Part shown: positions 6,720-48,865 of the stretch, piece by piece
How the letters are laid out: the number at the start of each line of letters is the position of its first letter
Position numbering within the stretch: position 1 is the first letter of the stretch
Assembly: GCA_029863605.1 (NCBI GenBank)
Contig: JAOTVB010000004.1
Span: 62,001 to 126,000, forward strand
DNA from: Myxococcales bacterium
Lineage (GTDB): Bacteria; Myxococcota_A; Polyangia; Polyangiales; Houyiibacteriaceae
Direction: 5' to 3'
DNA length: 64,000 bases
Position numbers and translations under genes: made by a program
Notes under the pieces: model-generated
Seen by the model: the letters and a program-made list of their open reading frames with translations, nothing else
What the model was told of the DNA's origin: nothing
The model's database searches: none

Positions 6720-6796
<77 letters not shown>

Positions 6797-6805
6797 AAAG
6801 AGGAC

Positions 6806-6881
6806 GGGGCTGTAGCTCAGCTGGGAGAGCGCCGGCTTTGCAAGCCGGAAGTCGTCGGTTCGATCCCGATCAGCTCCACCA
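6806..6881 (+). tRNA. tRNA-Ala (TGC anticodon)
   Basis: A 76-nt cloverleaf: acceptor GGGGCTG pairs with CAGCTCC (one G-U), anticodon TGC in the loop of CCGGCTTTGCAAGCCGG, T-arm with GGTTCGATCCC, encoded CCA. It lies 9 bp after tRNA-Ile and 329 bp before the 23S gene. Confidence 0.97.
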
Positions 6882-6990
6882 TACCCACTTGCCAAAAATC
6901 CCGTGAAAGCCCAACCTTGATTCCTTCGGTCGGCGGCGCGAAAGCCGCGCAATCGACCCGAGCAATCAAGATTCAAACCTCGATTCTCGC

Positions 6991-7002
6991 AGCTCTTTGA
7001 CA
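6991..7002 (+). promoter_or_regulatory. rRNA antitermination boxA in the spacer
   Basis: AGCTCTTTGACA is a second boxA-like element in the 329-bp stretch between tRNA-Ala and 23S, the usual place for the spacer boxA. Nothing else recognisable was seen in this stretch apart from the left arm of the 23S processing stem. Confidence 0.65.
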
Positions 7003-7186
7003 ACTGAATATCGTAGAAATTTTCTCTTTCTAGCCGCGACTGTGACCAGGCTCTTCTTTCGAACCCTGGTCTCGAGTTGCGAGAGTGCCGCGCCATAACC
7101 TTTCCGTCATGGCAAAGCACTAGGTGGTTCCTGGATATCGCGTTCAGGAGCACACCAGCTTCGTGTGGAGGCAACGAAACACGAAG

Positions 7187-7206
7187 TACGAGACGCGTCT
7201 TAGGAG
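7187..7206 (+). other. 23S processing stem, left arm
   Basis: This 20-nt segment (TACGAGACGCGTCTTAGGAG) is complementary to 10217-10236 with one mismatch and two G-U pairs. The two arms directly flank the mature 23S ends, as expected for the RNase III processing stalk. Confidence 0.7.
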
Positions 7207-7210
7207 TAAA

Positions 7211-10216
<3,006 letters not shown>

Positions 10217-10236
10217 CTTCTAAGACACGTTTCGTA
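10217..10236 (+). other. 23S processing stem, right arm
   Basis: CTTCTAAGACACGTTTCGTA pairs with 7187-7206 (17 Watson-Crick pairs, two G-U, one mismatch) to close the 23S precursor stalk. It opens the 131-bp spacer before 5S, in which no tRNA was seen. Confidence 0.7.
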
Positions 10237-10347
10237 CGTGGCTTGAGGCCAGGGTTGGAAGGAAGAGCTCGAGACGTTCCATCAACACGGACGCTCGGAC
10301 TTGCTTCTGATCCGCTTCACAGAGCGGTGAAGAGAAACTTTCTACGG

Positions 10348-10466
<119 letters not shown>

Positions 10467-34968: not shown

Positions 34969-37560
34969 ATGAAAACCGATATGCCTCAGGTTGTTCGTTT
35001 AGGGTTGGCTGCGATCCTCGCATTGGGCGTGGGCGTCACCGGGTGCGGTGATGGCGACGGCGGTACGGGCGGCACCGGTGGCGGCGGTACCGGCGGAGGT
35101 GGCACCGGCGGCATGGGCGGCGGCGGCATGGGGGGCGAAGGCGGCAGTGGCGGTGTGGTTGGCGCCGTGACCGCGACCCCGCCGGGCACCACGTTCAACC
35201 CCACCATCGAGGTGACGTTGAGCACCATGAGCGGCCAGCCGATCTATTACACGACCGATTTGTCGCCCGTCCTCGATGGCGACGGCAACGTGCAGGGCAC
35301 GGAGTACACAGGGCCCATCACCATCGATGGTCAGACGACGGTCTTGAAGTTCCTCACCGGGACCGAAGGCGACTACTCCGCAGAACAGTCGGAGGGCTAT
35401 GTGTTCACTGAAACGCCAATCCGAACGGAGTGGGCCAAGAGCGGGCACGGCGACATCACAGCTGAGCCCTGGCGCCGTTTTGACGACGGCGGCGCGGTCT
35501 CGAATCGATGCGCGAAGTGCCACGGGCCCCAAGGAAACGATGACCCGCCGCCGGACGTGGGCTTGCTCGAATACCTCGCGACGGGCGAAAACACTCTTTC
35601 AGCCCCACTCCCACTCGGTATCGACTGCGTTAACTGCCACCAAACGTTCCCGACGATCTACTCAAACCTGGCGAAATTCGGCCTCCCAAATGGTGAGCTC
35701 GAGCCGGTGGTGTTCCCCTCCACCGAACAGGTTTCCCTTTATGGTCCAAGCAACATCTGCATGACCTGCCACCAGGGCCGCGAGTCCGGCAAGAGCGTGC
35801 AGGACGAGATCGACGCGGACGATGGCGTGGGGCCCTATGAGTTCACCAACATCCACTACTACGCGGCCGCTGCCTCCTTCTTCGGAAGCGAGACTGACGG
35901 TGGGTTCGAGTACGCCGGTCAGTGGTACCGGCCACGGAACACGTTCCCCTCGCACCCCGACACGTTCTCGACCTGCGTCGGCTGCCATATGACCAACGCC
36001 GAGGGCGGCGAGATGCACACGTGGATCCCGGCCGTCGACAGTTGCATCAGCTGCCACGGCGGCACGAGCTTCGAGACGCTCGGCGGCACGCCCGGTCAGA
36101 GCTACACCAACATCCAGGCCCTGCTGCCCGAGCTCTACTCCGAGATCCAGGATTACGCGGCCACTGTGATCGGCGTGCCCATCGTGTACGACGGCCGATT
36201 CTGCAACGACAATGGAGAGCCGTGCGGGCGCAGCAACAGCTATGAAGATTTCGATGCGAAGCTTCTGCCGGCCGCCTACAACTACCAGGTCGCCCTGAAG
36301 GATCCCAACGGCTTCATCCACAACGGGACCTATATCCAGCAGCTCCTCCACGACTCGATCGTGGACCTCGGCGGCACGCCCTCGGTGGCGGTGATCGGTC
36401 GCGGTGAGCTAACCATCGAGGGAACGGACATTGGCATGGTTTCGAAGACGCAGCAGTGGCAGCTCAGCGCACACGCTGCAGCGGACACCCCGCCATTCCG
36501 TGAGTGGGACAACACATATCTGCCGGACGGGTACACCCCGCGCGGCATCCAGTCACCCTCAGGCGAACCGGTACCGGGCGTCAGCAGTTGCACGAGGTGC
36601 CACAGCACCCCCGGCTTCGAGGAGTACGCCATGAGCAACCCGACGACCGTGCATTTCCCCACGACGACTGTGGACTGTTGGTCGTGTCACAACAACAACG
36701 ACCTCTTCGCCAACTCGGAGACTCGGTACGACGTTCTAGGGACCAACACGGCTCTCGCGTCGATCGTGTTCCCGTCCGGCGACGAAGCCTCGTTCGGCAA
36801 TGCCAGCAACATCTGCATGGGCTGCCACCAAGGTCAGAACTCAACCGTCCAGGTGGACGCCGCGACGCCGAATACGGTCATGCAAGCCCCGACGGACTAC
36901 GACTCCTACGACTTCATCAACATCCACTACTACGCGGCGGCGGCGACGCTCTTCGGCACCGACGTCCGGGGCGGTTACGAGTACGGCGGCAACGTGTATC
37001 GCGGACAGAACATGTTCGTGGGTCTCCACAACCCAACGCCGGATGGCCAGACGCTGGTCGACTGCATCGGCTGCCACCTGAACGGAGCCGTCGATCCCGC
37101 GGACAGGCAGAGGCACACCTTCCTGCCGCAGGTCCAGGACTGCAATCAGTGCCACAGCGGCCAGGCGTTCCAGGACTTGAGTGGATCCCCGGGCGACAAC
37201 TTCCGCGAGATCGACATCTTGAAGGAGGATCTGCTCGCGGCAATCCAGGCCTACGCCACCACCGGCAATCCCCTCACTGGGCTGCCTCAGGACTCCCCAG
37301 TTTTCTACAACGGCGACACTTACCCGTACTGGTTCAACGGGATCGAAGGCATGGACCCTGCTAGCTACCCGAACCGGTATCGGGACTTCGACTTCGACAT
37401 GCTGACCGCGGCCTACAACTTCGTGACGGCCGACAAGGATCCGGCCGGGTACATTCATAACGGCGGCTACATCCAGCAGCTCTTGTTCGACTCGATCTGC
37501 CTGATGGGTGGCACCCCGCGTGTGGTGACCGTTCCGAGTCGCCCGACGTCCTGCCCGTAG
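34969..37560 (+). CDS. Decahaem c-type cytochrome lipoprotein with duplicated five-haem module
   Basis: An 863-residue outer-surface candidate. The lipobox VTGC (Cys26) is followed by about 40 residues of Gly/Thr/Met linker. Residues 70-150 (VTATPPGTTFNPTIEVTLS, GQPIYYTTD) resemble the chitobiase C-terminal (CHB_HEX_C) beta domain. Ten CxxCH motifs follow: CAKCH, CVNCH, CMTCH, CVGCH, CISCH, then CTRCH, CWSCH, CMGCH, CIGCH, CNQCH. The second five repeat the first in order and context, each half ending in DP.GFIHNG.YIQQLL type text. This is a clear internal duplication. It begins the plus-strand cytochrome operon and is the best candidate for the cell-surface electron outlet. Confidence 0.93.
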   Translation: MKTDMPQVVRLGLAAILALGVGVTGCGDGDGGTGGTGGGGTGGGGTGGMGGGGMGGEGGSGGVVGAVTATPPGTTFNPTIEVTLSTMSGQPIYYTTDLSPVLDGDGNVQGTEYTGPITIDGQTTVLKFLTGTEGDYSAEQSEGYVFTETPIRTEWAKSGHGDITAEPWRRFDDGGAVSNRCAKCHGPQGNDDPPPDVGLLEYLATGENTLSAPLPLGIDCVNCHQTFPTIYSNLAKFGLPNGELEPVVFPSTEQVSLYGPSNICMTCHQGRESGKSVQDEIDADDGVGPYEFTNIHYYAAAASFFGSETDGGFEYAGQWYRPRNTFPSHPDTFSTCVGCHMTNAEGGEMHTWIPAVDSCISCHGGTSFETLGGTPGQSYTNIQALLPELYSEIQDYAATVIGVPIVYDGRFCNDNGEPCGRSNSYEDFDAKLLPAAYNYQVALKDPNGFIHNGTYIQQLLHDSIVDLGGTPSVAVIGRGELTIEGTDIGMVSKTQQWQLSAHAAADTPPFREWDNTYLPDGYTPRGIQSPSGEPVPGVSSCTRCHSTPGFEEYAMSNPTTVHFPTTTVDCWSCHNNNDLFANSETRYDVLGTNTALASIVFPSGDEASFGNASNICMGCHQGQNSTVQVDAATPNTVMQAPTDYDSYDFINIHYYAAAATLFGTDVRGGYEYGGNVYRGQNMFVGLHNPTPDGQTLVDCIGCHLNGAVDPADRQRHTFLPQVQDCNQCHSGQAFQDLSGSPGDNFREIDILKEDLLAAIQAYATTGNPLTGLPQDSPVFYNGDTYPYWFNGIEGMDPASYPNRYRDFDFDMLTAAYNFVTADKDPAGYIHNGGYIQQLLFDSICLMGGTPRVVTVPSRPTSCP

Positions 37561-37640
37561 CCTGTTAGCCCAGGCTGCGCGAAACAGCCAAAACAGCAAT
37601 CCGGGGCACGTCTTCGCTTGAAGGCGCGCCCCGGTTGTCT

Positions 37641-39710
37641 ATGATCGACTCGATGCTCTCGTTTCGACGTGCTCCTTGGCTTTGGCTCGTTGTTGGTGCG
37701 TTGTCGCTGCAGGTCGCGTGCAAAGGAGACACCGGGGAGCAAGGCCCCCAGGGGCCGCCTGGAGAACCCGGCCCCCCCGGGGAGACGCCGGGGCCGGACA
37801 TCGACCCCGAACCCTTCGGTTTGGTCGGCCGGATCATGGAGCCAAACATGGTACCGGTTCCGAGCGGAACAGTGTACCTCGTTCCGGCAAGCGATGTAGA
37901 CGAGCTCTCACAAACGCCAATCGATCTCTTCTTGTCACCGGAAGAGACCGAGGCGCTCGAGATCGACGAGCCGATTGAAGACTTGCTCGACACGAACGGC
38001 GATAGCTACGAACAAGCAGAAGTCGACGCGGACGGGGTCTACCGCTTCGAGACGCTTCCCGAGGGAAGCCACTTCGTCGTGTGGGCTCCCGCGGCTGACG
38101 ATACCCAGCACTTGCCCGGCGGTGACGGCAGCAGGGTGTCATTCACCAGAGAGTCGCTGATCGGCATGCAAATGAACCTCCACGTGAGCCCACGGCCAAG
38201 CCCAGCGGCGACCTACGTGGGCTCCTCGACGTGTATGGTGTGCCACGGCCTCCACAGCACGACGCGCACCGCACACAGCGTGGGGCTTCAAGTGCCCGGG
38301 GTGCGCTCGATTCTGCAAGACATCGAGCCGTGGCCGGGCTTCGATGACGCGCTCTCCGCGTTCGATACGAACTCGACGACGCTCTACTACTACGATTGCG
38401 ACGATGCGACCCTCAACCCCGCAAAGTGCAGTGTCGACGATGAGCTCCCGTCCGGTGTCGTCGCCTTCACGATCAACCTGCGTCGCGACCTTGGCAAACC
38501 GCTTGGCGAGGTCGGAGCGTATTACATCGAGATGGTGAACGGCACGACGGAACGGTACGACGTCGTTCTCACCTATGGCGGCGCGTTGGAAAGGCAGCAG
38601 TACCTCACGCGGCGGACGAATGCGGACGGAAGCTTCAGCTATTTCGTCTTGCCTGTGCAGTACAACTACCAGGGGGATTTCTCGAATCCGGACTCGGATG
38701 ACTGGCCGTGGAAGGACTACCGCTCGGACCTCTGGTACGACTTCGGCTCGGGTACGCTTCGCCAGCCCGACAACTCGGATTCGTTCGACAACAACTGTGC
38801 CGGCTGTCACTTCACCGGTTACCGACTCGAAGGAAGCGACGTGGACGGTTGGTCCGCACAGGCGATCGTCGACCCCGTAGGGGCCTTCGATTACAACGGC
38901 GATGGCAAGCCCGAGCTCATCAACACCGGCTGCGAGGCCTGCCATGGACCGGGCTCTGAGCATTTGGAGCTGAGCCCGCGCAGCAGCTACATCGTTTCGC
39001 CAGGATTGCTCACCCCGGGCCGCCAGGCTGTAATTTGCGGACGTTGCCATTCGCGGCCGCTCGGCATCGGTGCCGGCATGACGGGGCTGCCGCTCTCCGT
39101 GGACAACGAGATGCCGCCAGTGGGAATTCGCCGTCGCGACTTCGCCCCGCTCTACACAACGCGCGTCAGTGGCGCGCCCGAAGACTTCTTCGCCTCGGGC
39201 GACCCGAGGGCAGACTATCAGCAGTACTCCGACCACATTCGGGCGAGGCACTATCGGAATCCCGTCCGGCTCACCACTTGCACTGGGTGCCACAATCCGC
39301 ATGTCAACTCGGCCGACGTCGCCGAGATGGACACGTCCGGCAACCCCAATGCGGTGTGCACCACGTGCCACAGCCCGGAGGCCAACCCGGAGCTCTATCC
39401 AGTGGCCGCTCACGCCGCGACCGTCACGGGCGTTGCCGGGCACGCGAGCTTGGAAGAGTTCTTTGGGCCGTACCTCTGCACCCAGTGTCACATGGTGCCG
39501 ACGGCCCGGTCCGGTGCTGCCGTTCGAGCCTTGGTCGATGCAATCGGTGCGCCGCCGACGGTGCAATACTACTGGAACGATATCGCAAACCATCGCATGA
39601 CCGTGACCCGCTGGGAAGAGGCCGAGGGACAGCCGAGCCAGCCCATCGCCTTCACCAACGAGTGCGGTCAGTGCCACGCAGAAGTTCTTCCGAACACTCC
39701 GACGCCATGA
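37641..39710 (+). CDS. Octahaem c-type cytochrome with collagen-like stalk
   Basis: A 689-residue protein from the ATG at 37641. The signal sequence ends at Cys27 (LQVAC, an atypical but plausible lipobox). Residues 29-50 are a Gly-X-Y collagen-like run (GEQGPQGPPGEPGPPGE), followed by a carboxypeptidase-regulatory-like beta domain (FGLVGRIMEPNMVPVPSGTV, YRFETLPEGSHFVVW). Eight haem sites follow: CMVCH, CAGCH, CEACH, CGRCH, CTGCH, CTTCH, CTQCH, CGQCH. The arrangement of CEACHGPGSEHL and the later pairs recalls octahaem reductase-like cytochromes. Its stop overlaps the start of the next cytochrome gene by 4 bp, so the two are translationally coupled. Confidence 0.93.
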   Translation: MIDSMLSFRRAPWLWLVVGALSLQVACKGDTGEQGPQGPPGEPGPPGETPGPDIDPEPFGLVGRIMEPNMVPVPSGTVYLVPASDVDELSQTPIDLFLSPEETEALEIDEPIEDLLDTNGDSYEQAEVDADGVYRFETLPEGSHFVVWAPAADDTQHLPGGDGSRVSFTRESLIGMQMNLHVSPRPSPAATYVGSSTCMVCHGLHSTTRTAHSVGLQVPGVRSILQDIEPWPGFDDALSAFDTNSTTLYYYDCDDATLNPAKCSVDDELPSGVVAFTINLRRDLGKPLGEVGAYYIEMVNGTTERYDVVLTYGGALERQQYLTRRTNADGSFSYFVLPVQYNYQGDFSNPDSDDWPWKDYRSDLWYDFGSGTLRQPDNSDSFDNNCAGCHFTGYRLEGSDVDGWSAQAIVDPVGAFDYNGDGKPELINTGCEACHGPGSEHLELSPRSSYIVSPGLLTPGRQAVICGRCHSRPLGIGAGMTGLPLSVDNEMPPVGIRRRDFAPLYTTRVSGAPEDFFASGDPRADYQQYSDHIRARHYRNPVRLTTCTGCHNPHVNSADVAEMDTSGNPNAVCTTCHSPEANPELYPVAAHAATVTGVAGHASLEEFFGPYLCTQCHMVPTARSGAAVRALVDAIGAPPTVQYYWNDIANHRMTVTRWEEAEGQPSQPIAFTNECGQCHAEVLPNTPTP

Positions 39711-40762
39711 CCGTTGGGGCACACCGGCGTTGGGTTGCCGGGCTCGTGTGGGCAAGCCTCGTGCTCCTTGGCTGCAACGAGGTGCGCAACCGGGAGGAGC
39801 CGCCGGTCGTCTTCACCGACATCGATCCGATCCTGCAGGAGGGTTGCGTCGACTGTCACAGCGGTTCGGTGCCCGCTGCGGGTTATTCGGTCGAGGACTA
39901 CCTCGAAACGATCCGTTGTGTCCCCGACGGGCGACCGGCAACGCTGCCGCCGGACGCGACCGCTCCGATTCTGGCGGTGCTCGCCAGGCCTGATCACGCA
40001 GATTTGCTCGACGCGAGCCAAGCCGATGGGCTCACGGCATGGGTCGTCGAGGGGGCGTGGCCGGCCCGACGCGGCTCGCATCCGGGGCAATGGCTCGATC
40101 CCCGGACTGACGCCTGGCATGGGACGTATCTTGAGGAAACGGACTGGCAGGGCATCGTCGACCCCACGAGGGGCGACGCCTGCGGGCTCTGTCACCCAGG
40201 CTCTCCCGCGCCCGTTCCTGGAATTACCAGCTACGCGCCCGGCGCCACCGATTGCACGGATTGCCATGACTTGCCTGGTGGGGTGATGGCCTGCGGGACG
40301 TGCCACGGCGATGGCCTCAGACCCTATCCGCCACGCGATCCATGCTATTTCCCCGGCCCACCCTTTGGTGGCGCACACAAGACGCATACCGAGCCCTCCG
40401 CCAACATGCCCAATCCCCTCGGCTGCCAGTCGTGTCACTTCGGCGAGGACTACGCGATGCTCGAAGGGGGACACGGAAATGGCGAGGTCAACGTGATCTT
40501 CCAGCCCGCCTGGGGCCCTGATGCGACCTATGACTCCGAAACCCGTGTGTGCGCCACAACGTGTCACGTGCGTGGTGGAATGATGCCAGTCGTGGCCTGG
40601 GACGAGGCGGGGCTGAACCTGGACTGCAACAGCTGCCACCTCAATCCTCCGCCGGGTCACGCGACGATCGCCTGCAACGGCTGTCATCGGGGCATCAACC
40701 CAGAGGGCACGCGGTTGACGATCGAAGCGCCCCACATCAACGGCCGCGTCGATGCGTTCTGA
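39707..40762 (+). CDS. Multihaem lipoprotein with CX3CH variant (7+1 haem motifs)
   Basis: A 351-residue lipoprotein (LLGC, Cys23) starting at the ATG at 39707, which overlaps the previous stop (ATGA). The first site, in a FTDIDPILQEGCVDCHSG block, is of the surface-lipoprotein haem type; then CGLCH, CTDCH, CGTCH, CQSCH, CATTCH, CNSCH and CNGCH. The sixth has three residues between the cysteines, a spacing known in a few Geobacter-type cytochromes. HTEPSANMPN and GGHGNGEVNV hold possible distal His ligands. The upstream in-frame extension to 39035 is only the other frame of the octahaem gene. Likely an exported electron carrier or surface cytochrome. Confidence 0.92.
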   Translation: MTVGAHRRWVAGLVWASLVLLGCNEVRNREEPPVVFTDIDPILQEGCVDCHSGSVPAAGYSVEDYLETIRCVPDGRPATLPPDATAPILAVLARPDHADLLDASQADGLTAWVVEGAWPARRGSHPGQWLDPRTDAWHGTYLEETDWQGIVDPTRGDACGLCHPGSPAPVPGITSYAPGATDCTDCHDLPGGVMACGTCHGDGLRPYPPRDPCYFPGPPFGGAHKTHTEPSANMPNPLGCQSCHFGEDYAMLEGGHGNGEVNVIFQPAWGPDATYDSETRVCATTCHVRGGMMPVVAWDEAGLNLDCNSCHLNPPPGHATIACNGCHRGINPEGTRLTIEAPHINGRVDAF

Positions 40763-40807
40763 TATTGTTTGCGAATGACGTGGCCTACATAGTAGCGTCC
40801 GGCGCGG

Positions 40808-41245
40808 ATGAAGCGGCTGCTCGATCGACGCACAATTTTGAACTGGTTTGTTGGCGGAAGCACGTTCGCCTGGCTTGGTTCCGTGCTCCACCCGGTGGTG
40901 CGTTTCCTGATGCCACCCCCCGAGCAGGAAGCGGCAGTCTCTGCCGTGAAGGCGGCATCGCTGACTGAGATGGCGCCCAACTCCGGGAAGATCTTCAAGT
41001 TCGGCCGCAAGCCAGCGCTGATCGTGCGCCGGGTCGACGGCAGCTTTGCCGCGTTCCTCGCTAAATGCACGCACCTCGATTGCGTCGTGCAATACCGCCC
41101 AGACAAAGAGCGGATCTGGTGCGCGTGCCATGACGGGTTTTACGACCTCAACGGGACCAATGTGGCGGGTCCACCACCAAGGCCCTTGGACGCCTTAGAG
41201 GTGCACACGAAGGGGGACGATGTCTACGTCACCCGAAAATCCTGA
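40808..41245 (+). CDS. Rieske [2Fe-2S] protein
   Basis: A 145-residue Rieske protein with an N-terminal twin-hydrophobic anchor (ILNWFVGGSTFAWLGSVL, preceded by RR at 7-8). Cluster ligands are Cys87 and His89 in CTHLDC and Cys105 and His108 in CACHDG; Cys92 and Cys107 can form the disulphide of high-potential clusters. Length is that of small bc1/b6f-type Rieske subunits. The gene starts 45 bp after the multihaem gene and its last 26 bp overlap the cytochrome b gene, so the two subunits are coupled. It would receive electrons from quinol at the Qo site and hand them to a c-type partner; none of the usual cytochrome c1/f genes is present. Confidence 0.95.
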   Translation: MKRLLDRRTILNWFVGGSTFAWLGSVLHPVVRFLMPPPEQEAAVSAVKAASLTEMAPNSGKIFKFGRKPALIVRRVDGSFAAFLAKCTHLDCVVQYRPDKERIWCACHDGFYDLNGTNVAGPPPRPLDALEVHTKGDDVYVTRKS

Positions 41246-42305
41246 GCGCGCGCTTCTTGCCTGGCTCAAGGACCGCTACCCCGTCGCGCAGTTCGTCGAG
41301 TGGGCCGAACACAAGACGGTTCCGGTCGGTCGGGGCGCGTTTTGGTACTATTTCGGTGGAATCACCCTCTTCTTGTTCCTCATTCAGGTGGGGACAGGGA
41401 TCCTCTTGATGTTCTACTACAAGGGGAGCGCCGATACCGCGTTTGCAAGCGTCCGATTCATTTCTGCCAAAGTGCCATTTGGCTGGCTCGTTCGCTCAAT
41501 CCACGCGTGGGCGGCAAACCTGATGATCTTTTCGGTGTTTATTCACATGTTTAGCGTGTTCTTCATGCGGGCCTATCGTAAGCCGCGTGAGCTCACTTGG
41601 CTCTCAGGAATCGTGCTCCTCGCGCTTCTGCTTGGCTTCGGGTTCAGCGGGTATCTCTTGCCGTGGAACGAGCTCGCCTTCTTCGCGACGAAGGTGGGGA
41701 CCGACATCATCGGGGTCATCCCAGTCATCGGTGAGCCCATCATGTACGTGTTACGTGGTGGGGAGGAGGTGACGGGATCGACGCTCCCTCGGTTCTTTGC
41801 GCTTCACGTGGCGCTGTTTCCGGCCTTGCTGACCCTCTTCATGGCGGCCCATCTCTTCTTCATCCAACTCCAGGGGATTCACGAGCCCGATGCGTGGAAA
41901 ACTCAGCCAGAGCAACGGAAGACCATGCCGTTCTTCCCGCACTTCTTCATGCGCGAGCTTCTGCTGTGGTTGATCACGTTTAACATCTTGGCAGTGTTGG
42001 CGGTCTTCTCCCCGGCGGAGTTGGGCGTCGAGGCCGATCCGTTTTCCCCGGCTCCAGCCGGCATCAAACCGGAGTGGTACTTCCTGAGTACGTTCGAGTT
42101 TCTCAAGTACATGCCCGCTCACATAGGCCCGCTCGAGGGAGAAGAGTTCGGGCTATTGATCATTTCGCTCGGCTTCCTCCTGTGGTGCTTGGTTCCATGG
42201 ATCGACCGCGGGCGCAGTCGCACGATGACAACCGTCGTCATGGTCGGCGGTATGGCGATCCTCGTGTTTCTCACGATCCTGACCTATCTGGGGTACGTCG
42301 CGTGA
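41220..42305 (+). CDS. Cytochrome b (quinol oxidase-type, bc complex)
   Basis: A 361-residue integral membrane protein with about eight helices. Four haem-ligating His are visible: His95 and His109 in helix B (SIHAWAANLMIFSVFIHM), His196 and His211 in helix D (FFALHVALFPALL, MAAHLFFIQ). The 14/15 residue spacing is of the b6/menaquinol type. The Qo-site signature PEWY is at 284-287. It overlaps the Rieske gene by 26 bp and shares one base with the following nonahaem gene (TGATG). It is fused in one chain, not split as in b6f. This is the quinol-oxidising core of the electron-transfer system. Confidence 0.96.
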   Translation: MSTSPENPERALLAWLKDRYPVAQFVEWAEHKTVPVGRGAFWYYFGGITLFLFLIQVGTGILLMFYYKGSADTAFASVRFISAKVPFGWLVRSIHAWAANLMIFSVFIHMFSVFFMRAYRKPRELTWLSGIVLLALLLGFGFSGYLLPWNELAFFATKVGTDIIGVIPVIGEPIMYVLRGGEEVTGSTLPRFFALHVALFPALLTLFMAAHLFFIQLQGIHEPDAWKTQPEQRKTMPFFPHFFMRELLLWLITFNILAVLAVFSPAELGVEADPFSPAPAGIKPEWYFLSTFEFLKYMPAHIGPLEGEEFGLLIISLGFLLWCLVPWIDRGRSRTMTTVVMVGGMAILVFLTILTYLGYVA

Positions 42306-43546
42306 TGAAAGGCTTCGTGACAGCACTCCTCCTAGCCTGTGTAGCGCTAACCTCGAGGGTCAAGGCTGACGATCTGTCCGGAGGCGAGTGTCTCGAGTGT
42401 CATCTCGAGATTGAAGACCCCATCACCGAGCTCTGGAAGGATGATGTTCACGCCCACGCGGGAATCGGATGCGACGGATGTCACGGTGGAGATTCCACGA
42501 AGGACGATAGTGAGCTCGCCAAACGTTCGGGATCGGGTTATCGAGGCCAGTTTACGCCTCGCCAGATCGTGTTGTCCTGTGGCGGCTGCCACGCCGACAT
42601 CGAATACATGAAAGCCCGAAAGCCGCTTCTGTCCGTCGATCAGCTCGAGAAGTATTGGACGAGCCAGCACGGAAAACTCCTGGCCAAAGGGGAGACCCGC
42701 GTAGCTCAATGCGTGAGTTGCCACGGGGCGCATGGGGTTCGCGAAGTCAACGATCCAAAGTCGCCCGTCTACGCAGCGAACGTTCCCGCCACGTGTGCAC
42801 ACTGTCACGCCGATGCGGAGTACATGAGCGAATTCGACATCGCTACAAACCAGTACGACGAGTACGCTCAGAGCGTCCACGGAAAAGCCCTCCTAGAGAA
42901 GAACGATGTTCGCGGGGCGCCGGCCTGCAACGACTGCCACGGAAACCACGGGGCCGCGCCGCCCTCGATAGACGCGATCACCAACATCTGTGGGACTTGC
43001 CACAGCTACAACGCCGAGCTCTTTCTAGGGAGCCCGCTAGCGCCGGGTTTCAAAGAAAAATCGCTGGCCGACTGTGTTGCTTGCCACGGCAAACACCTCA
43101 TCACACACGCGTCCGACGACTGGCTCGAGGACGAGCCTGGCGGCGCGTGTAGGAAGTGCCACGAAACGGGCGACGAGGGATCTGATCTCGCCCTCTACTA
43201 CGCCGACACGCTCGGTTCGATTCGACAATCATTCGACGAGATCGACGAGTTGCTCGCCCGAGCCGAGGTGAAGGGCATGGACGTCACCGAAGGTGAGGAT
43301 TACGAGCAGGCAGCCCGGCAGGGTCTCCTTCAGGCTCGCACGTTGATTCACGCGTTCTCGAAGCCCGTGATGGAGGAAAAAGTCACCGATATCGCGCAAA
43401 ACCAAGCCGCCGCATTGGAGGTGGGGTATGCACAGCTCAAAGCTTTCGACGACCGCCGCCGTGGGCTTGCCATCAGCACGTTGTTACTACTTCTTCTTAC
43501 CATCGGCGTGGCGATCAAGATCCGCACACTGCCCCCGTTGGAATAA
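42305..43546 (+). CDS. Nonahaem c-type cytochrome with C-terminal membrane anchor
   Basis: A 413-residue protein with a cleavable signal (MKGFVTALLLACVALTSRVKA in two blocks, cleavage near residue 21), nine CxxCH motifs (CLECH, CDGCH, CGGCH, CVSCH, CAHCH, CNDCH, CGTCH, CVACH, CRKCH) within the first 300 residues, then a helical region and a C-terminal membrane helix (STLLLLLLTIGVAIKI). The haem head should face the periplasm and the tail anchor it beside cytochrome b. The start shares one base with the cytochrome b stop. It probably takes the place of cytochrome c1, passing electrons from Rieske onward. This combination of Rieske, b and nonahaem subunits is the inner-membrane module. Confidence 0.94.
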   Translation: MKGFVTALLLACVALTSRVKADDLSGGECLECHLEIEDPITELWKDDVHAHAGIGCDGCHGGDSTKDDSELAKRSGSGYRGQFTPRQIVLSCGGCHADIEYMKARKPLLSVDQLEKYWTSQHGKLLAKGETRVAQCVSCHGAHGVREVNDPKSPVYAANVPATCAHCHADAEYMSEFDIATNQYDEYAQSVHGKALLEKNDVRGAPACNDCHGNHGAAPPSIDAITNICGTCHSYNAELFLGSPLAPGFKEKSLADCVACHGKHLITHASDDWLEDEPGGACRKCHETGDEGSDLALYYADTLGSIRQSFDEIDELLARAEVKGMDVTEGEDYEQAARQGLLQARTLIHAFSKPVMEEKVTDIAQNQAAALEVGYAQLKAFDDRRRGLAISTLLLLLLTIGVAIKIRTLPPLE

Positions 43547-43593
43547 CACTGGCGCTGACATGGGAGCTAAGACCGGATCAAGTTGAGTCGATC

Positions 43594-43731
43594 GGGCGGT
43601 GTGCTGCGCGGGCACGGGACGGGCGTGCTCGCGATGGGGCCCCGGTCGCCCTTGTGGCGAATTATGGATCCGAGCGCGGGCTCCTCCCCACCGCTGTGCT
43701 GCCCATCCCGCGCCCGCGCAGCACACCGCCC
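43594..43731. repeat. Long inverted repeat between convergent cytochrome operons
   Basis: Arms 43594-43624 and 43701-43731 match in 29 of 31 positions, including a perfect 20-bp core (GGGCGGTGTGCTGCGCGGGC). After a 6-nt mismatch the arms continue (GCGATGGGG against GCGGTGGGG) to give 46-bp arms around a 46-nt loop. It lies in the 489-bp gap 43547-44035, which otherwise holds no convincing gene; short motifs TGGCGCTGACA recur at both edges of the gap. The element may be a bidirectional terminator, a structured RNA or a decayed miniature transposon. Confidence 0.8.
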
Positions 43732-44035
43732 TATTGAGCCCACTACCGTGGACAATGGAGTCGCGTCGACTGGACCTGCGAGGCTCACGCGCACGGTCGC
43801 TGATGCTGTTCTCAAGGATTAGGTGACTCGGGTCGCGCCGACGCCTATGGGGGCGGAGCCAGCGGTAGCCTCGGCGTAAAAGACGATTCTAATCGGTCCT
43901 AAGTCTCGGCAACCGCAGTGGCGGTCATGGCCGACGAAGCCCCCATCGGTGGCGGCCCGGCCCGAGTTACCGGTTGACGCAGTTGGTACGCTGACAGTGA
44001 CACTAGCGCTGGCGCTGACACTGGCGCTGCTACTG

Positions 44036-45550
44036 TCACCGTCCACTGACGAAGGTGTGACAGCCGGTGCATCGCTTCGCGTCAGGCTCGTGGTTGGCGA
44101 TGTCCTCATGGCAGGCCATGCACGTCGCGCGGTCGGCCCGAGCCCGACGAGCGTGAATGTCGTGACACGCTGCGCACTCGGTATGACCCTCACCTTGCGG
44201 CTCATCAGCAATGCGATGGAGGCCGGGCAACTTCGCGATTTGGTGGCAGCTTGTGCAGGTGGTGTCCGCGGTTGCGGCGCCGCGGTGGGGCTCGTGGCAT
44301 GAAGCGCAGTCACGGTGACCCTCGGGGCTGTTTGTGAGTTGCTCTTCGTGACAGCTCGCGCATGCCAGGGGAGGGGACAGTTGATGCACAGACCCACCAT
44401 GACACGACTCGCAACTAGAATGGCCCTCATTTCGGCTAGTTAGGCGTACCTGTTTCGCATGGCATCGCACGCATAGAGCCCGTTCTTCGAGGCCGCTCAA
44501 GTCAAAGCGGTGGGGTCGGTGGCAGTCGGTACACTCGGTCTTGGGCGAGTGGAATGCTCTTTCGGAGTGCGCCTCATCGTGGCAGTCGGTGCACCGGTGG
44601 GCCAGCTGAGCGACGCGTTTGGGGTGAGGATCGTGGCATGAAACGCATTCGGTCTTGGCACCGACGGCGGGATGCGTCGATGAAACGTCCGAGTGGCACT
44701 TTGCACATGAGCGCTCCGCCGGAGCTCGCACAGCGTGAGGCTGATGGCAGCTTGCGCAATCGCGATGTGCTCGAGCCTTGTTTTGTGCGAGGACTTGCGT
44801 TTTCTTGTGGCATGTGGCGCACCGCAGGGCGGTGGACGACGAGAACGAGTGTGCTTGATGGCAGGTCGCGCACGATTCGTGGCCACCGTCAAAGGTTGCC
44901 GTCAGCGAAACCATCGGTTCGCGTGTCTCGTGGCACTGCATGCAGGCTGCCGCCTCGGAGGCGAGCTGGTGGCCCCCATGGCAGTCGGCGCAAGTACCGC
45001 TGAGCCGGGGCCGCCCGTGCTGGACTTTCATCTTCTGGTGGCATTCGTCGCATTCCAGAACGGTTTCTTCGATTGGTTTGTGTGGGTTGTGACACGTTTC
45101 GCAAGGCACTGACGTATGGATCGCCAGGCCCGGATTGCCTTCCGTTTCGAAAGGCCCGTGGCAGCGCGTGCAATGCCACCGCCCAAAGACATCGGGCTCC
45201 GGTTTGAAGACATGGCACTTGTAACAGTCCATTGGCATGCCATCGAGATCGACATGCACGAGAGAGACCTGTTCCTCATGGCACTTCGTACAGACACCTA
45301 TATCCGGAGCGTCGAAGGTGGGTTTGTTGGGGTCGTGGCATTCGTCGCACTTCACCTCTTGGTTGGCCACGTGTCTCGAATGCCCCGGCGAACGACGCAC
45401 TTGTTGCCAACTTTCGGGCACTGTCCGTGGCGGAGGTTCGCCTCGCGTTGTCTTGATCTCTTGAACGTCGCTTGTGAATCTAACGGCCAAGAACCCAGCG
45501 ATGAATCCAATTACCGCGAACACGATGATTGCGATCAGGGCGCGTTTCAT
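44036..45550 (-). CDS. 23-haem c-type cytochrome, N-terminally membrane-anchored
   Basis: A 504-residue protein with an uncleaved-looking N-terminal helix (residues 3-27, RALIAIIVFAVIGFIAGFLA) and 23 CxxCH motifs in about 440 residues, one per 19-20 residues. Many are in pairs with the shape C..CH-x-PH, for instance DCASCHQPH, ECVSCHDPH, ECTDCHRPH, DCASCHEPH, suggesting repeated duplication of a two-haem unit. Numerous extra His supply distal ligands. The charged residue content is high and the anchor should place the chain in the periplasm, where it could span to the outer membrane as a wire. The ATG overlaps the stop of the 13-haem gene by 4 bp (45547-45550). Confidence 0.95.
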   Translation of the reverse strand: MKRALIAIIVFAVIGFIAGFLAVRFTSDVQEIKTTRGEPPPRTVPESWQQVRRSPGHSRHVANQEVKCDECHDPNKPTFDAPDIGVCTKCHEEQVSLVHVDLDGMPMDCYKCHVFKPEPDVFGRWHCTRCHGPFETEGNPGLAIHTSVPCETCHNPHKPIEETVLECDECHQKMKVQHGRPRLSGTCADCHGGHQLASEAAACMQCHETREPMVSLTATFDGGHESCATCHQAHSFSSSTALRCATCHKKTQVLAQNKARAHRDCASCHQPHAVRAPAERSCAKCHSDVSSTHPAVGAKTECVSCHDPHPKRVAQLAHRCTDCHDEAHSERAFHSPKTECTDCHRPHRFDLSGLEERALCVRCHAKQVRLTSRNEGHSSCESCHGGSVHQLSPPLACASCHEEQLTNSPEGHRDCASCHEPHRGAATADTTCTSCHQIAKLPGLHRIADEPQGEGHTECAACHDIHARRARADRATCMACHEDIANHEPDAKRCTGCHTFVSGR

Positions 45551-46608
45551 AAGTTACCCAAATGACACAAGCGACACGGAAGATCGTTGATGATGTCGAG
45601 TCGGCTACTGAAGTTCGCCGGGTGGGGGTTGCCACCTGGGCCACCGACCCGGTGGCAACCTACGCAAAGCATTTCACCTGCGCCGCCGTGGCAGCTCGCG
45701 CATCCGACAGGGTCTAGCCGGGCGGCTGGCCCGTGATCGTTCGAACTACCTGGCGGCCCCGACCACCCCGGAGGATGAGGATTTCCCCGTGCCGCATCGA
45801 TGCCGGCGATACCTTCGCGCGTGTGACAGTCGACACAGAACAGCTCGCTGTGGCAGATGACGCACATGCCCGGTTCGGCTGCTGCTTGCATGTCGTGAAC
45901 CGAAAAGAAGTTCGCTCGATGCATCGACTGTCGCATCGGCGAATCGAAGGCGAGCCTAGACGGAATCGCCGCCACGGTGATCCCGTGGCAGGCCGCGCAT
46001 TCACGTTGGGTGTGGCAGGTGGTGCATAGGTCTGCTTGGGCAGCGGCCTGCACTCCATGCTCGCGAAGGAAGTCACCGTCGTGGACCACGTGGCTCTCCG
46101 GCAGGGCGCCCTCGGATGCGAGCTCGACGTGACAGCTGTCACAATCACGCGCATCCCATTGGCCTGCGTGCTCGTGGCAACTGAAGCAGGTGGCCATGTT
46201 AGGCCGAAGGGCCGCGTCCTCGTGGCGCACGTCCACGTGGCAACGCACGCAGTCCCCGGCGCCGGCCTCGTCGTGACCGGCATGCGAAAAGACCAGATGC
46301 TTCCGCGCCATTTCCGCGGCGTGTCGGGTGCGCGCGCGCCCATGGCAGTCCGAGCAGGTGTTCGGATCGTGCGGATCTTGGTGGCACTCGACGCACTGTT
46401 GCGTCGTCGGAAGGTGTAGGGGCCCCGTTTCCTCAGCGTCTTGGATACCAGCGTGGCACTCGAGGCAGTTGATCCCCTCGAGGACGTGTGCGCGATGCTC
46501 GAAGGGGCCGTCCTGGGGGTCCTTTTCGATGCCGAGCATCTTGGCGCAGGCTCCCGAGAAGCCGGCGAGGGCGACGAATGCAACGACAGCGATGAGCCTC
46601 CTGGTCAT
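45547..46608 (-). CDS. 13-haem c-type cytochrome lipoprotein
   Basis: A 353-residue protein from the ATG at 46608, which overlaps the stop of the beta-barrel gene (ATGA). A signal with lipobox SGAC (Cys21) precedes 13 CxxCH motifs: CLECH, CVECH, CSDCH, CVRCH, CFSCH, CDSCH, CTTCH, CAACH, CVICH, CVDCH, CASCH, CVGCH, CRLCH. The FEHRAHVLEGINCLECH opening with its distal His is typical of periplasmic or outer-membrane multihaem proteins of porin-cytochrome conduits. With the barrel gene before it and the 23-haem gene after it, all overlapping, it is the likely cytochrome that plugs the pore. Confidence 0.94.
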   Translation of the reverse strand: MTRRLIAVVAFVALAGFSGACAKMLGIEKDPQDGPFEHRAHVLEGINCLECHAGIQDAEETGPLHLPTTQQCVECHQDPHDPNTCSDCHGRARTRHAAEMARKHLVFSHAGHDEAGAGDCVRCHVDVRHEDAALRPNMATCFSCHEHAGQWDARDCDSCHVELASEGALPESHVVHDGDFLREHGVQAAAQADLCTTCHTQRECAACHGITVAAIPSRLAFDSPMRQSMHRANFFSVHDMQAAAEPGMCVICHSELFCVDCHTREGIAGIDAARGNPHPPGWSGPPGSSNDHGPAARLDPVGCASCHGGAGEMLCVGCHRVGGPGGNPHPANFSSRLDIINDLPCRLCHLGNL

Positions 46609-47927
46609 TTCTTCGGCCACTCCGCTTGATAAGAGACGCGCGCCAGTGCGCGAACTTCGTACCTCTGGACTTGGTTGGCGCTAGCTTCGCACGCGGCCGC
46701 AATCGCCCAGCTCTTGCCCGGCTGCCAGCGAAGCGCAAGCCGTCCCCAAGGCCAGACCGAGCCTTGGCCCGGGTCGGGGTCGTCGGGAAAGACGATCTCG
46801 AACTCAGGCATCAGACCCACCGTCGTATCGATGTCCTCGTAGAGGGGAATCACGGCGGCAAGTCGGATCCCCGTCCATTGAGACACCGAAACCGACTGGC
46901 GCTTGAGCTCGCCGAGGATGCTTCCCTTGCCCTCGTCGTCGGTGCGAAGCACGCCGCGGAGGTAGCCGCTCCAGCCATATTGGTCTTCGGCGTTCATCAC
47001 CGCGCCGTTCACCCACAAGTCGAGCCTTGGAGCCGCCCTCCATCGCAGATTTGCGCCGGTCTGCAAAGTCCCTGGGTCGCCGAGGACGGTGAAGAGGGAG
47101 GTCGCTTGGAGCATGCGAATTGGAGAGCGTTTGGTCACGTAAAGCTCGCCGCGAATCGCTCGATCCTTGGTCTGTGCCGAGATCGTGCCGAGGACTTCGG
47201 CAAGGCCGGGGTTCACCAACTCCCAGGAAACCTTGGCCGCCACGTCGAGCCAGTGCGCGACACGCAGCGAGAAGTCCCCGCCGACCTCTTCATCCGACCG
47301 TTGGCCGGCGTTGAAGCGATTGTAATACGAAGCGCCGACCACCCCTCGCTTTCCGAGCCCCTGCGAAAGGCGCCCACCGACCATCCAGTCGTACTTGCGA
47401 CCCTCGATGTTCCCATCGACCGGCACGCCGCCGAAAACCTCGAAATGCGTCTTCGATCGGGCGCGCAGGGTGATGTGACCGCCGTCGATGTGCATGGCGC
47501 GGACCGAGCCGGTTGCCAGAATGAAGCGCCCGAGGCGCGTATCGCTGATCCCTTTCGGGTCCCGAACCTTGATCGCGATCACGAGGGCCTGGATCTCCGC
47601 GCTGTCGTCGAAACCAAACTGTGACGCTCCAATGCCGCCCCAGATCATCGCCTCGGCGTCGACGTAGGGATACTTGCGTGTCGAGCCCTCCAAGATGATC
47701 AGCCCGTAGTTCGGGTTCGCTTGCCCCCAAAGCTCAGCCCCGACCCGATGCGGTTGCGCTCGAGCGCTCGTGGCGGAAAGACAAGACCACGCAAAAATCG
47801 CAGCGAGGGCAAGACCGGCACGGCTGGCGATCGAACGGATCTTCTGGCTTGCGCGAGGCCCTGATCTTGGCCCATGTTCTCTCTGGTTCGACCGCTCGGA
47901 TAGCGGCGAGCTCAGCACCCCATGCAT
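46605..47927 (-). CDS. Outer-membrane beta-barrel (porin-like) protein of the conduit
   Basis: About 440 residues from the ATG at 47927 (GTG 47918 is possible). A long basic n-region precedes a hydrophobic signal core ending in SATSARA-QP. The mature part is made of alternating amphipathic strands with aromatic girdles (VGAELWGQANPNYGLIILEG, DFSLRVAHWLDVAAKVSWEL, LDLWVNGAVMNAEDQYGWSG) and ends in VRALARVSYQAEWPKK, a weak C-terminal strand. There is no haem motif. Size is close to the roughly 400-residue barrels of Geobacter porin-cytochrome complexes, not the larger MtrB/PioB. Its stop overlaps the 13-haem start. The 5-prime end overlaps the divergent NapC-like gene by 6 bp, so the true start may be a little later. 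Confidence 0.75.
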   Translation of the reverse strand: MHGVLSSPLSERSNQREHGPRSGPRASQKIRSIASRAGLALAAIFAWSCLSATSARAQPHRVGAELWGQANPNYGLIILEGSTRKYPYVDAEAMIWGGIGASQFGFDDSAEIQALVIAIKVRDPKGISDTRLGRFILATGSVRAMHIDGGHITLRARSKTHFEVFGGVPVDGNIEGRKYDWMVGGRLSQGLGKRGVVGASYYNRFNAGQRSDEEVGGDFSLRVAHWLDVAAKVSWELVNPGLAEVLGTISAQTKDRAIRGELYVTKRSPIRMLQATSLFTVLGDPGTLQTGANLRWRAAPRLDLWVNGAVMNAEDQYGWSGYLRGVLRTDDEGKGSILGELKRQSVSVSQWTGIRLAAVIPLYEDIDTTVGLMPEFEIVFPDDPDPGQGSVWPWGRLALRWQPGKSWAIAAACEASANQVQRYEVRALARVSYQAEWPKK

Positions 47928-48599
47928 GTATCGCCACTGGCTTGGATCGCCCTCACCTGCGCCGTCGTCGCTGCAGTCATCATGCTGTTGTACCTGGTGT
48001 ACCGGCCGCCGCTCGACGGGAAGACCAAAGGGTTTCTCGCGCTTGGGCTCGGTGTTCTGCCGATCATGACTGCCCTGATCGGCAACGTGGAAGGCCTCCG
48101 TGCGACTGAGCACCAAGCCTTTTGTGGCAGCTGCCACACGATGGATTTCCACATCGCCGATGCGAACGACCCCGATAGCATGGGGCTCGCGGCGATCCAT
48201 TCGCGCACGAAGATGTTCGGGGATCGAAGCTGTTATGTCTGTCACAAGGACTACGGGATGTACGGCTACACGCTGACCAAGCTCGGGGGCATGGGGCACG
48301 TCTATTACTTCCTGACGGACTATGCCTGGGAGGACGCCCACGAATCTCTTCCGAGAGTCCACATCGCCAGGCCGTTTCGAAATGACAATTGCATGCAGTG
48401 CCATAGCACCAGCGGGAGGATCTGGAACGGCGTTCCGGACCATCAAGGGCTCCTCGAGGACCTTCGGGCGGGCCAGACGAGTTGCGCCAGCGCCGGCTGT
48501 CATGGGTACGCGCATCCCTTCAGCAAGCCACCCGAAGACGAAACAGAGCCGGCCGAGGCGCGGTTGGACCCGGGCGTGAAGGCACCGGAGGGCACATGA
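47922..48599 (+). CDS. NapC/NirT-type membrane tetrahaem cytochrome (3 CxxCH + CX4CH)
   Basis: A 225-residue protein with an N-terminal membrane helix (residues 6-27) and a second hydrophobic stretch near 38-57, then CGSCH at about 65, CYVCH, CMQCH and a variant CASAGCH. The FCGSCHTM block, where Met can be the haem ligand, is the NapC/NirT family hallmark; these proteins take electrons from menaquinol and pass them to periplasmic cytochromes. It lies divergently from the barrel/13-haem/23-haem genes and overlaps the small membrane gene by 4 bp. The start at ATG 47922 lies 6 bp inside the predicted start of the barrel gene, so one of the two is probably shorter. Confidence 0.9.
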   Translation: MHVSPLAWIALTCAVVAAVIMLLYLVYRPPLDGKTKGFLALGLGVLPIMTALIGNVEGLRATEHQAFCGSCHTMDFHIADANDPDSMGLAAIHSRTKMFGDRSCYVCHKDYGMYGYTLTKLGGMGHVYYFLTDYAWEDAHESLPRVHIARPFRNDNCMQCHSTSGRIWNGVPDHQGLLEDLRAGQTSCASAGCHGYAHPFSKPPEDETEPAEARLDPGVKAPEGT

Positions 48600-48865
48600 A
48601 TCGATGGTTCAAGAAGCTGCTCGATAGGGGTTCTCGCTCGCGGCTTCTGGTGGTGGCGTGCGTCCTCGGGCTCATCGGGCTCGCGCTCATGAGCTGGTCG
48701 CTTTTCGACCAGGGTTGGATCCCCGTCATGATGGCCATGTCGATCGGACAAGTTATTGGAACGCTATCATTCGGGTTGTTCCTGTTGGTAGTGATTATCG
48801 ACCTGCGAAGGGCCACTTTTCGCCCGTCGATGCCCGCCCAAGCGTCGAGGAAAGAAGATCGTTAG
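48596..48865 (+). CDS. Small two-helix membrane protein coupled to the NapC-like gene
   Basis: An 89-residue protein with two membrane helices (about 17-35 and 44-66) and basic ends (MNRWFKKLLDRGSRSR, IDLRRATFR). Start ATG overlaps the preceding stop as ATGA, so it is made together with the NapC-like protein and may be a small assembly or accessory subunit. Its end overlaps by 4 bp with the stop of the convergent permease gene. No family recognised. Confidence 0.75.
   Translation: MNRWFKKLLDRGSRSRLLVVACVLGLIGLALMSWSLFDQGWIPVMMAMSIGQVIGTLSFGLFLLVVIIDLRRATFRPSMPAQASRKEDR

Follow-up and report, generated by a model that had tools for sequence, protein, structure and literature searches.

Within a window of 64,000 nucleotides from a Myxococcales bacterium (contig JAOTVB010000004.1, positions 62,001 to 126,000; coordinates below count from the first letter of this stretch) lie three consecutive minus-strand genes for a predicted outer-membrane β-barrel, a lipoprotein with 13 haem-binding CxxCH motifs and an N-terminally anchored cytochrome with 23, here called the wire (Table 1). 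We propose, with a probability of roughly 0.65, that the three form a porin–cytochrome electron conduit, one of a family that occurs widely in the Myxococcota. The 13-haem lipoprotein, lodged in the barrel, would carry electrons through the outer membrane; the wire would be a tether spanning the periplasm as far as the inner membrane; there a quinol dehydrogenase, either of the NapC type or a Rieske/cytochrome b/9-haem assembly, would supply or take the electrons; and the contacts at the cell surface would likely be multihaem lipoproteins of the same cluster. From gene order, overlaps, haem motifs, anchors and co-occurrence, all read from the sequence, together with the predicted fold of the barrel, we infer the plug position, the spanning of the periplasm, the partners, the formation of a complex, its function and the electron direction.

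The three genes are interlocked. An earlier note made from the sequence had reported a four-base ATGA overlap at both junctions, a 13-haem lipoprotein, a 23-haem cytochrome and a barrel of about 400 residues; both overlaps are exact, the CxxCH counts are 0, 13 and 23 for barrel, lipoprotein and wire, and the barrel reading frame runs from the ATG at 47927. The interval that the note gave for all three genes, 45547–47927, has to be corrected, since it spans the barrel and the lipoprotein only. The lipoprotein open reading frame (ORF) as listed starts at the GTG at 46620, the ATG at 46608 being the better start. An exact four-base overlap with an in-frame start (ATG, GTG or TTG) recurs between barrel and lipoprotein in 32 of 34 related loci and between lipoprotein and wire in 28 of 31. 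The exceptions at the first junction, L054 and L059, have a one-base overlap; at the second, the wire starts within 3 bases in L054 and L063 and is a distant, non-adjoining fragment in L055. Kept at these frequencies, the overlaps are not a product of chance; the loci share descent and are thus not independent events. The arrangement suggests that translation of the barrel, lipoprotein and wire is coupled.

The 34 loci were obtained by scanning GTDB species genomes with a barrel profile; because the scan relied on a single sequence motif, it attests to presence and not to absence elsewhere. Their titles name Myxococcales, Polyangiaceae, Kofleriaceae, Sandaracinaceae, Labilithrix, Nannocystis/Nannocystineae and unplaced ‘delta’-/proteobacteria, and include the complete chromosome of Minicystis rosea DSM 24000 (L052). 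In every locus the gene immediately downstream of the barrel is that of the 13-haem protein (one is cut by a contig end), and the wire is present in 30, or in 24 of the 25 that retain 3.5 kb to either side, so that the co-occurrence in related genomes to which the earlier note had pointed is found. Profile searches of 282 sampled genomes of the phylum (expectation value (E) thresholds of 1e-5 for the barrel, 1e-30 or 1e-54 for the 13-haem protein and 1e-60 for the wire) matched the barrel in 44, the 13-haem protein in 71 (counting distant relatives) or, at the stricter threshold, 56, and the wire in 24. All 24 wire genomes and 41 of the 44 barrel genomes carry the 13-haem gene; hypergeometric probabilities, in which shared descent is ignored, are 1e-19 for wire and 13-haem gene, 7e-12 for wire and barrel and 4e-33 for barrel and 13-haem gene. 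A 13-haem gene lies at most 1.5 kb downstream in 42 of 47 barrel loci; five barrel matches have none there, and three barrel-positive genomes lack the gene altogether, these being short fragments (192–480 bases, E 7e-15 to 9e-6). Conversely, the profile found a barrel at 42 of 59 13-haem loci (E 1e-54) and none upstream at 17; two regions (L133, L138) match the 13-haem gene and the wire with no barrel found by profile, and at the thresholds applied none of the three turns up in G168, a genome from the same genus.

More remote relatives separate the constant from the variable parts of the system. Eleven of thirteen more distant regions hold a barrel beside a 12–14-haem gene, and ten of these barrels, compared as a profile with the close family, align with a probability of 100 (E 5e-45, 355 columns). 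The weakest 13-haem matches number 26 (E about 5e-38 to 7e-31); in seven of eight such regions examined a barrel-like ORF directly precedes a 12–13-haem gene, six of these barrels still align with the close family (probability 97.7, E 2.5e-12, 372 columns), and none of the eight regions lists a further ORF with at least 3 CxxCH. Rows left out were L135 in alignment A6 and L148 and L149 in alignment A5. Because such regions hold the pair alone, we take barrel and 13-haem gene as the core and the 13-haem protein as the best plug candidate; the wire would then be a partner in part of the family only. Several distant 13-haem matches carry in-frame stops for which recoding was considered and rejected, because in six flagged loci (eight were read) the stop lies at the natural end of the gene.

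The barrel itself has a signal peptide, read by eye, that ends in SARA, with the mature chain beginning QPHR. It matches no Pfam or NCBIfam model, and across a 39-member family there are weak matches to seven Pfam models, from one member each (best E 0.016), with no barrel family among these models; PF11854 (MtrB/PioB) is matched by none of the 39 at E up to 1 and by nothing in the genome at E 0.001. Prediction nevertheless upholds the barrel that the earlier note had put forward as a candidate. An AlphaFold2 model built from the 39 sequences is all-β, with 21 strands over the whole chain (predicted local distance difference test score (pLDDT) 87.1, predicted template-modelling score (pTM) 0.77), and its Foldseek matches are outer-membrane barrels (FimD/PapC ushers, BamA, AlgE, OmpM1; best E 5.5e-6). 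VIA-align places TonB-dependent receptors at the top (Fiu with Z 19.4, root-mean-square deviation 4.6 and 335 of 383 residues aligned; BtuB with Z 18.4), ushers and OpdL-type porins following closely (both Z about 17); MtrB, with 26 strands, is not among the matches listed, which says nothing either way. The strands alternate between apolar and polar faces far more than shuffled strands do (hydropathy alternation 2.12 against 1.24 ± 0.21, maximum 1.94, in 1000 shuffles), and residues on the polar, lumen side are better conserved (2.80 bits) than those that face the lipid (2.46 bits; p 0.009). In life the number of strands is probably 22 rather than the 21 of the model, since the longer turns follow even-numbered model strands and residues 3 to 12 or so are strand-like in homologues. 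The strand count is 22 in TonB-dependent receptor barrels, 24 in ushers and 18 in OprD-type porins, and with close matches of all three sizes the number for the present barrel rests on the model. Turns are of at most 11 residues, with a single exception: model strands 12 and 13 are joined by a segment of 20 residues that contains ATSLFTVLGD, is better conserved, at 3.49 bits, than any other longer segment and may face outside. A backbone of 22 strands would be an estimated 39–44 Å across, a size at which TonB-dependent receptors accommodate a folded plug domain. These receptors serve here as a size comparison; a TonB-receptor function, considered in view of the top structural matches, was rejected because the mature protein has 383 residues, one long loop, no Pfam match and a constant cytochrome partner.

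Of the three proteins the 13-haem lipoprotein varies least, its mean Kimura distance being 0.73 (barrel 1.02, wire 1.13). In 34 aligned sequences (L038, which runs off its contig, was left out) its lipobox cysteine is invariant, with 13 CxxCH in 30 and 12 in four. Its relatives by profile in the PDB are 3ov0, which we take to be a 12-haem Geobacter cytochrome, the cytochromes of Alternative complex III and c7 cytochromes. With 18.9 bits against a cut-off of 192.2 it is not a member of TIGR03508 (the MtrA/DmsE decahaem family), and neither is the wire at 33.5 bits; by sequence, then, the barrel and the cytochromes stand outside the MtrB/PioB and DmsE/MtrA families.

The wire is long and dense in haem. 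The 28 complete wires, that of the window included, have 21–27 CxxCH at 20.5–25.6 residues per haem (loci with incomplete or missing wires, L032, L038, L039, L040, L050, L055 and L057, were left out of the alignment). Every one is anchored at its N-terminus, 21 by a membrane helix and seven by a lipobox (L041, L043, L049, L052, L058, L061, L065), which takes the place of the helix while the protein is alike in other respects. Among solved structures the wire profile matches 16-haem Hmc cytochromes and chain A of the Mtr entry 6r2q, presumably MtrA, the file naming that chain as an unrelated molecule; because of the repeats these matches indicate cytochrome architecture and not orthology. A single gene in this genome matches the profile at E 1e-10. 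The order of genes in relatives links the wire to a quinol-oxidising complex: in L137 a Rieske gene, cytochrome b, a 9-haem gene and a 33-haem wire precede the barrel and a 12-haem gene, and in L131 and L136 the barrel/12-haem pair comes first, with a 9-haem gene and then a wire behind it (33 haems in L131, 32 in L136); in all three loci the wire is the next gene after the 9-haem one. Distant barrel/13-haem pairs in L126–L129 are immediately preceded by very large multihaem proteins (844–1626 residues, 16–34 CxxCH); these match the wire profile and were considered as dense wires, and were not counted because their haem density is much lower. A broader reading, which we offer tentatively and rate somewhat below even odds, is that the envelope is hard-wired in a large part of the Myxococcota, the anchored 21–33-haem protein providing a fixed haem path, with no diffusing shuttles, from an inner-membrane quinol dehydrogenase to the barrel-bound 13-haem plug.

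The two cytochromes might also have exchanged roles, the C-terminus of the wire entering the barrel as the periplasmic or plug cytochrome and the 13-haem lipoprotein sitting on the surface in the manner of OmcB or ExtC. The invariant lipobox cysteine speaks for such an arrangement, as do the parts of the literature consulted, in which Geobacter conduits combine a periplasmic cytochrome with a surface lipoprotein (PMC6148476) and the PCC3 clusters of Gallionellaceae pair a 21–27-haem periplasmic with a 10–35-haem extracellular cytochrome (PMC10734462); the distances among wires also follow those of the barrel as well as those among the 13-haem proteins do. We nonetheless consider it unlikely: the most distant loci couple the barrel to a 12–13-haem gene with no second multihaem gene in the region, several of their cytochromes have by eye an ordinary signal sequence in place of the lipobox, and the cluster offers other candidate surface lipoproteins. 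The 13-haem protein is moreover the slowest-changing of the three, and surface lipoproteins are, in the portion of the source available, the components that vary most (PMC6148476). The 13-haem protein thus remains probably the plug of the barrel.

Several observations weigh against a conduit so arranged. Lipidation of the 13-haem protein throughout the close family is also compatible with a surface position, and MtrA is not known to be lipidated; an AlphaFold2 model of the protein is poor (pLDDT 63.9, pTM 0.43), and no conclusion is drawn from its one weak Foldseek match, 6f0k_A of Alternative complex III. A lipobox could place the wire at the outer membrane in the seven loci that have one. 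For the barrel, Foldseek template-modelling scores are modest (0.26–0.54 among the matches listed), and barrels of other strand numbers rank within about 3 Z units in VIA-align, so that structural matches do not fix the strand number; the conservation difference of 0.34 between lumen and lipid faces falls inside the range of shuffles (0.12 ± 0.10, maximum 0.44). MtrA, at 30 × 35 Å in section according to the part of the source consulted (PMC7198977), would be a tight fit for a 22-strand barrel. Six of the 24 wire genomes have no detected barrel, which 18 have. Correlations of distance matrices with that of the barrel (23 sets, with L032, near-identical to the window, dropped) are 0.756 for the 13-haem protein, 0.786 for the wire and 0.684 for NapC; this mirror-tree comparison singles out no barrel partner and does not separate plug from wire. 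A haem-copper oxidase is also present in the genome.

The NapC-type gene weakly favours electron flow outward. A gene of this type occurs in 27 of the 34 loci and a Rieske gene in one, in the stretches examined, while a C4lip-type gene is found in 23. The NapC-like protein of the window (47922–48599) is a member of PF03264 (30.0 bits against a gathering score of 24.1). The opposite direction, in which an extracellular donor such as Fe(II), Mn(II) or a partner cell is oxidised and feeds the Rieske/cytochrome b pair and an aerobic oxidase, appears doubtful. It draws on the Rieske/cytochrome b pair encoded beside the conduit, on the haem-copper oxidase and on PCC3, modelled in the sections consulted for flow from an extracellular donor (PMC5566968); what counts against it is the predominance of NapC over Rieske genes in related loci, a weak point since NapC-type proteins can run both ways. 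Alternatively, the barrel and cytochromes might form no passage through the membrane and act as a capacitor-like electron store or a periplasmic redox sink. Charge storage has been suggested for haem-dense proteins, as far as the source was available (PMC10734462), and the extracellular activity of the conduit is a prediction; an outer-membrane barrel that is specific, conserved and encoded in one overlapping operon with the cytochromes would, however, have no role in a purely periplasmic store, and we regard such a function as very improbable.

How the porin–cytochrome conduit proposed here relates to known systems can be judged from those parts of the cited papers that were consulted. The earlier note had recognised the gene order of such conduits, with a barrel far smaller and haem counts higher than in classical ones. 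Against MtrAB and PioAB the contrast stands; against other conduits it does not, because Pcc porins have 18–22 predicted strands and the Anaeromyxobacter Pcc cytochromes 12–14 haems (PMC4245776), ExtB has 18 predicted strands (PMC6148476) and PCC3 periplasmic cytochromes have a median of 21 haems (PMC5566968), so that a small barrel and a high haem count are not new as such. On the broad description of porin–cytochrome systems (PMC6148476), the window encodes an outer-membrane protein with predicted transmembrane β-strands, multihaem cytochromes (13 and 23 CxxCH) whose signal and anchor point to the periplasm, and one or more putative outer-membrane redox lipoproteins, identified by lipobox and CxxCH only. 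The lipobox was recognised by pattern at 45547–46608 and by eye at 39707–40762 and 34969–37560.

The nearest described relatives are probably the two-gene Pcc pairs of Anaeromyxobacter, compared by description only, which belongs to the same phylum (PMC11495043). There a porin accompanies a 12- or 14-haem periplasmic cytochrome of, with those of Kuenenia, 338–344 residues (group IV, PMC4245776); here too a small barrel stands beside a cytochrome of near-equal size and haem number (13 haems, 353 residues with signal), within the description of a porin beside a 12–14-haem cytochrome of about 340 residues, and the distant loci L142–L147 share the two-gene layout. The differences are that the 13-haem protein is lipidated and that a third gene, for the anchored 23-haem protein, overlaps the pair. 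PCC3, also likened by description only, offers a porin cluster with a haem-dense cytochrome already proposed to span the periplasm (21, 24 or 27 haems in Gallionellaceae, 22–39 residues per haem; PMC5566968, PMC10734462), and the wire, with 23 haems at 21.9 residues each, has the 21 or more haems at low residue number typical of it. PCC3 differs in its porins of up to 42 predicted strands, its five-helix inner-membrane partner (PMC5566968, PMC10734462) and its reported hosts, which are Alpha-, Beta- and Gammaproteobacteria. Such a five-helix protein (with two HX13H) was not recognised among the ten proteins at 34969–48599, which include cytochrome b and the NapC-type protein, although the motif itself was not scanned for. 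MtrCAB, MtoAB and PioAB resemble the present system in a barrel that sheathes a multihaem cytochrome, topped in MtrCAB by a surface cytochrome (PMC7198977); MtrAB departs from it with 26 strands and 10 haems, and with the PF11854 family to which our barrel has no match. Geobacter ExtABCD and OmbB-OmaB-OmcB and the OetABI of syntrophic sulphate reducers, again likened by description only, share a barrel, a periplasmic cytochrome (12 haems in ExtA) and lipoprotein cytochromes; for these the parts consulted mention no anchored wire with more than 20 haems whose gene overlaps the others (PMC6148476, PMC10553843).

Around the three genes the cluster supplies candidate partners (Table 1). The 10-haem lipoprotein has a weak OmcA/MtrC-family similarity (41.5 bits against a cut-off of 209.3) and contains a chitobiase-C/Fn3-associated domain and a linker rich in glycine; judged by eye, its two halves resemble each other. 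In the 8-haem protein a collagen-like Gly-x-x stretch, perhaps a stalk, comes right after the probable lipobox cysteine. The best starts of the barrel (ATG at 47927, minus strand) and the NapC-like gene (ATG at 47922, plus strand) overlap head to head within CATGCATG (47918–47930); probably one of the two is misplaced, or a shared promoter lies inside a reading frame. A scan for sigma-70 promoters found none, such a scan being uninformative for this bacterial group. Between the convergent 9-haem and wire genes lies a palindromic repeat (43560–43830) with arms of 59 nucleotides, 76% complementary (43581–43639 and 43686–43744). It has 20 matches in the genome, two being itself (direct and inverted) and six others about 90–104 nucleotides long at 80–89% identity, and by sequence belongs to a dispersed repeat family. 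Elsewhere in the window, 6720–10465 (plus strand) holds two tRNAs, 23S rRNA and 5S rRNA.

Table 1. The proposed conduit genes, their overlaps and neighbouring genes in the window (aa, amino acids)
Feature	Coordinates	Strand	Remarks
Outer-membrane β-barrel (predicted)	46605..47927	-	440 aa; mature ~383 aa, 46608-47756; no Pfam/NCBIfam match
13-haem lipoprotein, probable barrel plug cytochrome	45547..46608	-	353 aa; lipobox cysteine 21
23-haem wire cytochrome, N-terminal membrane anchor	44036..45550	-	504 aa; 21.9 aa/haem
Barrel/lipoprotein ATGA overlap	46605..46608	-	barrel stop / lipoprotein start
Lipoprotein/wire ATGA overlap	45547..45550	-	lipoprotein stop / 23-haem start
NapC/NirT-type cytochrome, probable quinol dehydrogenase	47922..48599	+	3 CxxCH + 1 CX4CH; divergent neighbour
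Small protein with hydrophobic stretches, accompanies NapC-like gene	48596..48865	+	89 aa
9-haem cytochrome, hydrophobic C-terminal stretch, beside Rieske/cytochrome b pair	42302..43546	+	
b6-type cytochrome b with N- and C-terminal domains	41220..42305	+	
Rieske iron-sulphur protein	40808..41245	+	
Multihaem lipoprotein ‘C4lip’, candidate surface cytochrome	39707..40762	+	7 CxxCH + 1 CX3CH; lipobox by eye
8-haem protein, candidate surface cytochrome	37635..39710	+	lipobox-like N-terminus, collagen-like stretch
10-haem lipoprotein, candidate surface cytochrome	34969..37560	+	lipobox by eye

To our knowledge, electroactivity has hardly been considered in the Myxococcota apart from Anaeromyxobacter. 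Four genomes of the phylum are rich in surface multihaem proteins, as stated in the part of the source consulted (PMC11495043). A literature search, with most subscription journals outside its reach and sources seen in part (among them PMC7399161 and PMC11475568), found neither the barrel family nor such an anchored wire in Myxococcota, which is not proof of absence. What we have not found described is the combination, in one overlapping operon, of this barrel family, a lipidated 13-haem partner and an anchored wire of 21–27 haems (30–33 in relatives). Within the family the barrel/13-haem pair would be the constant core, to which the wire and surface cytochromes are added or exchanged. The smallest barrel able to house a multihaem cytochrome, and the bridging of the periplasm by one tethered haem wire as against shuttles, become testable questions. 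Many myxobacteria of soil and sediment that have been little studied carry relatives of this gene set, and a set so widely kept leads one to expect extracellular electron exchange in myxobacterial lineages, Minicystis rosea DSM 24000 included.

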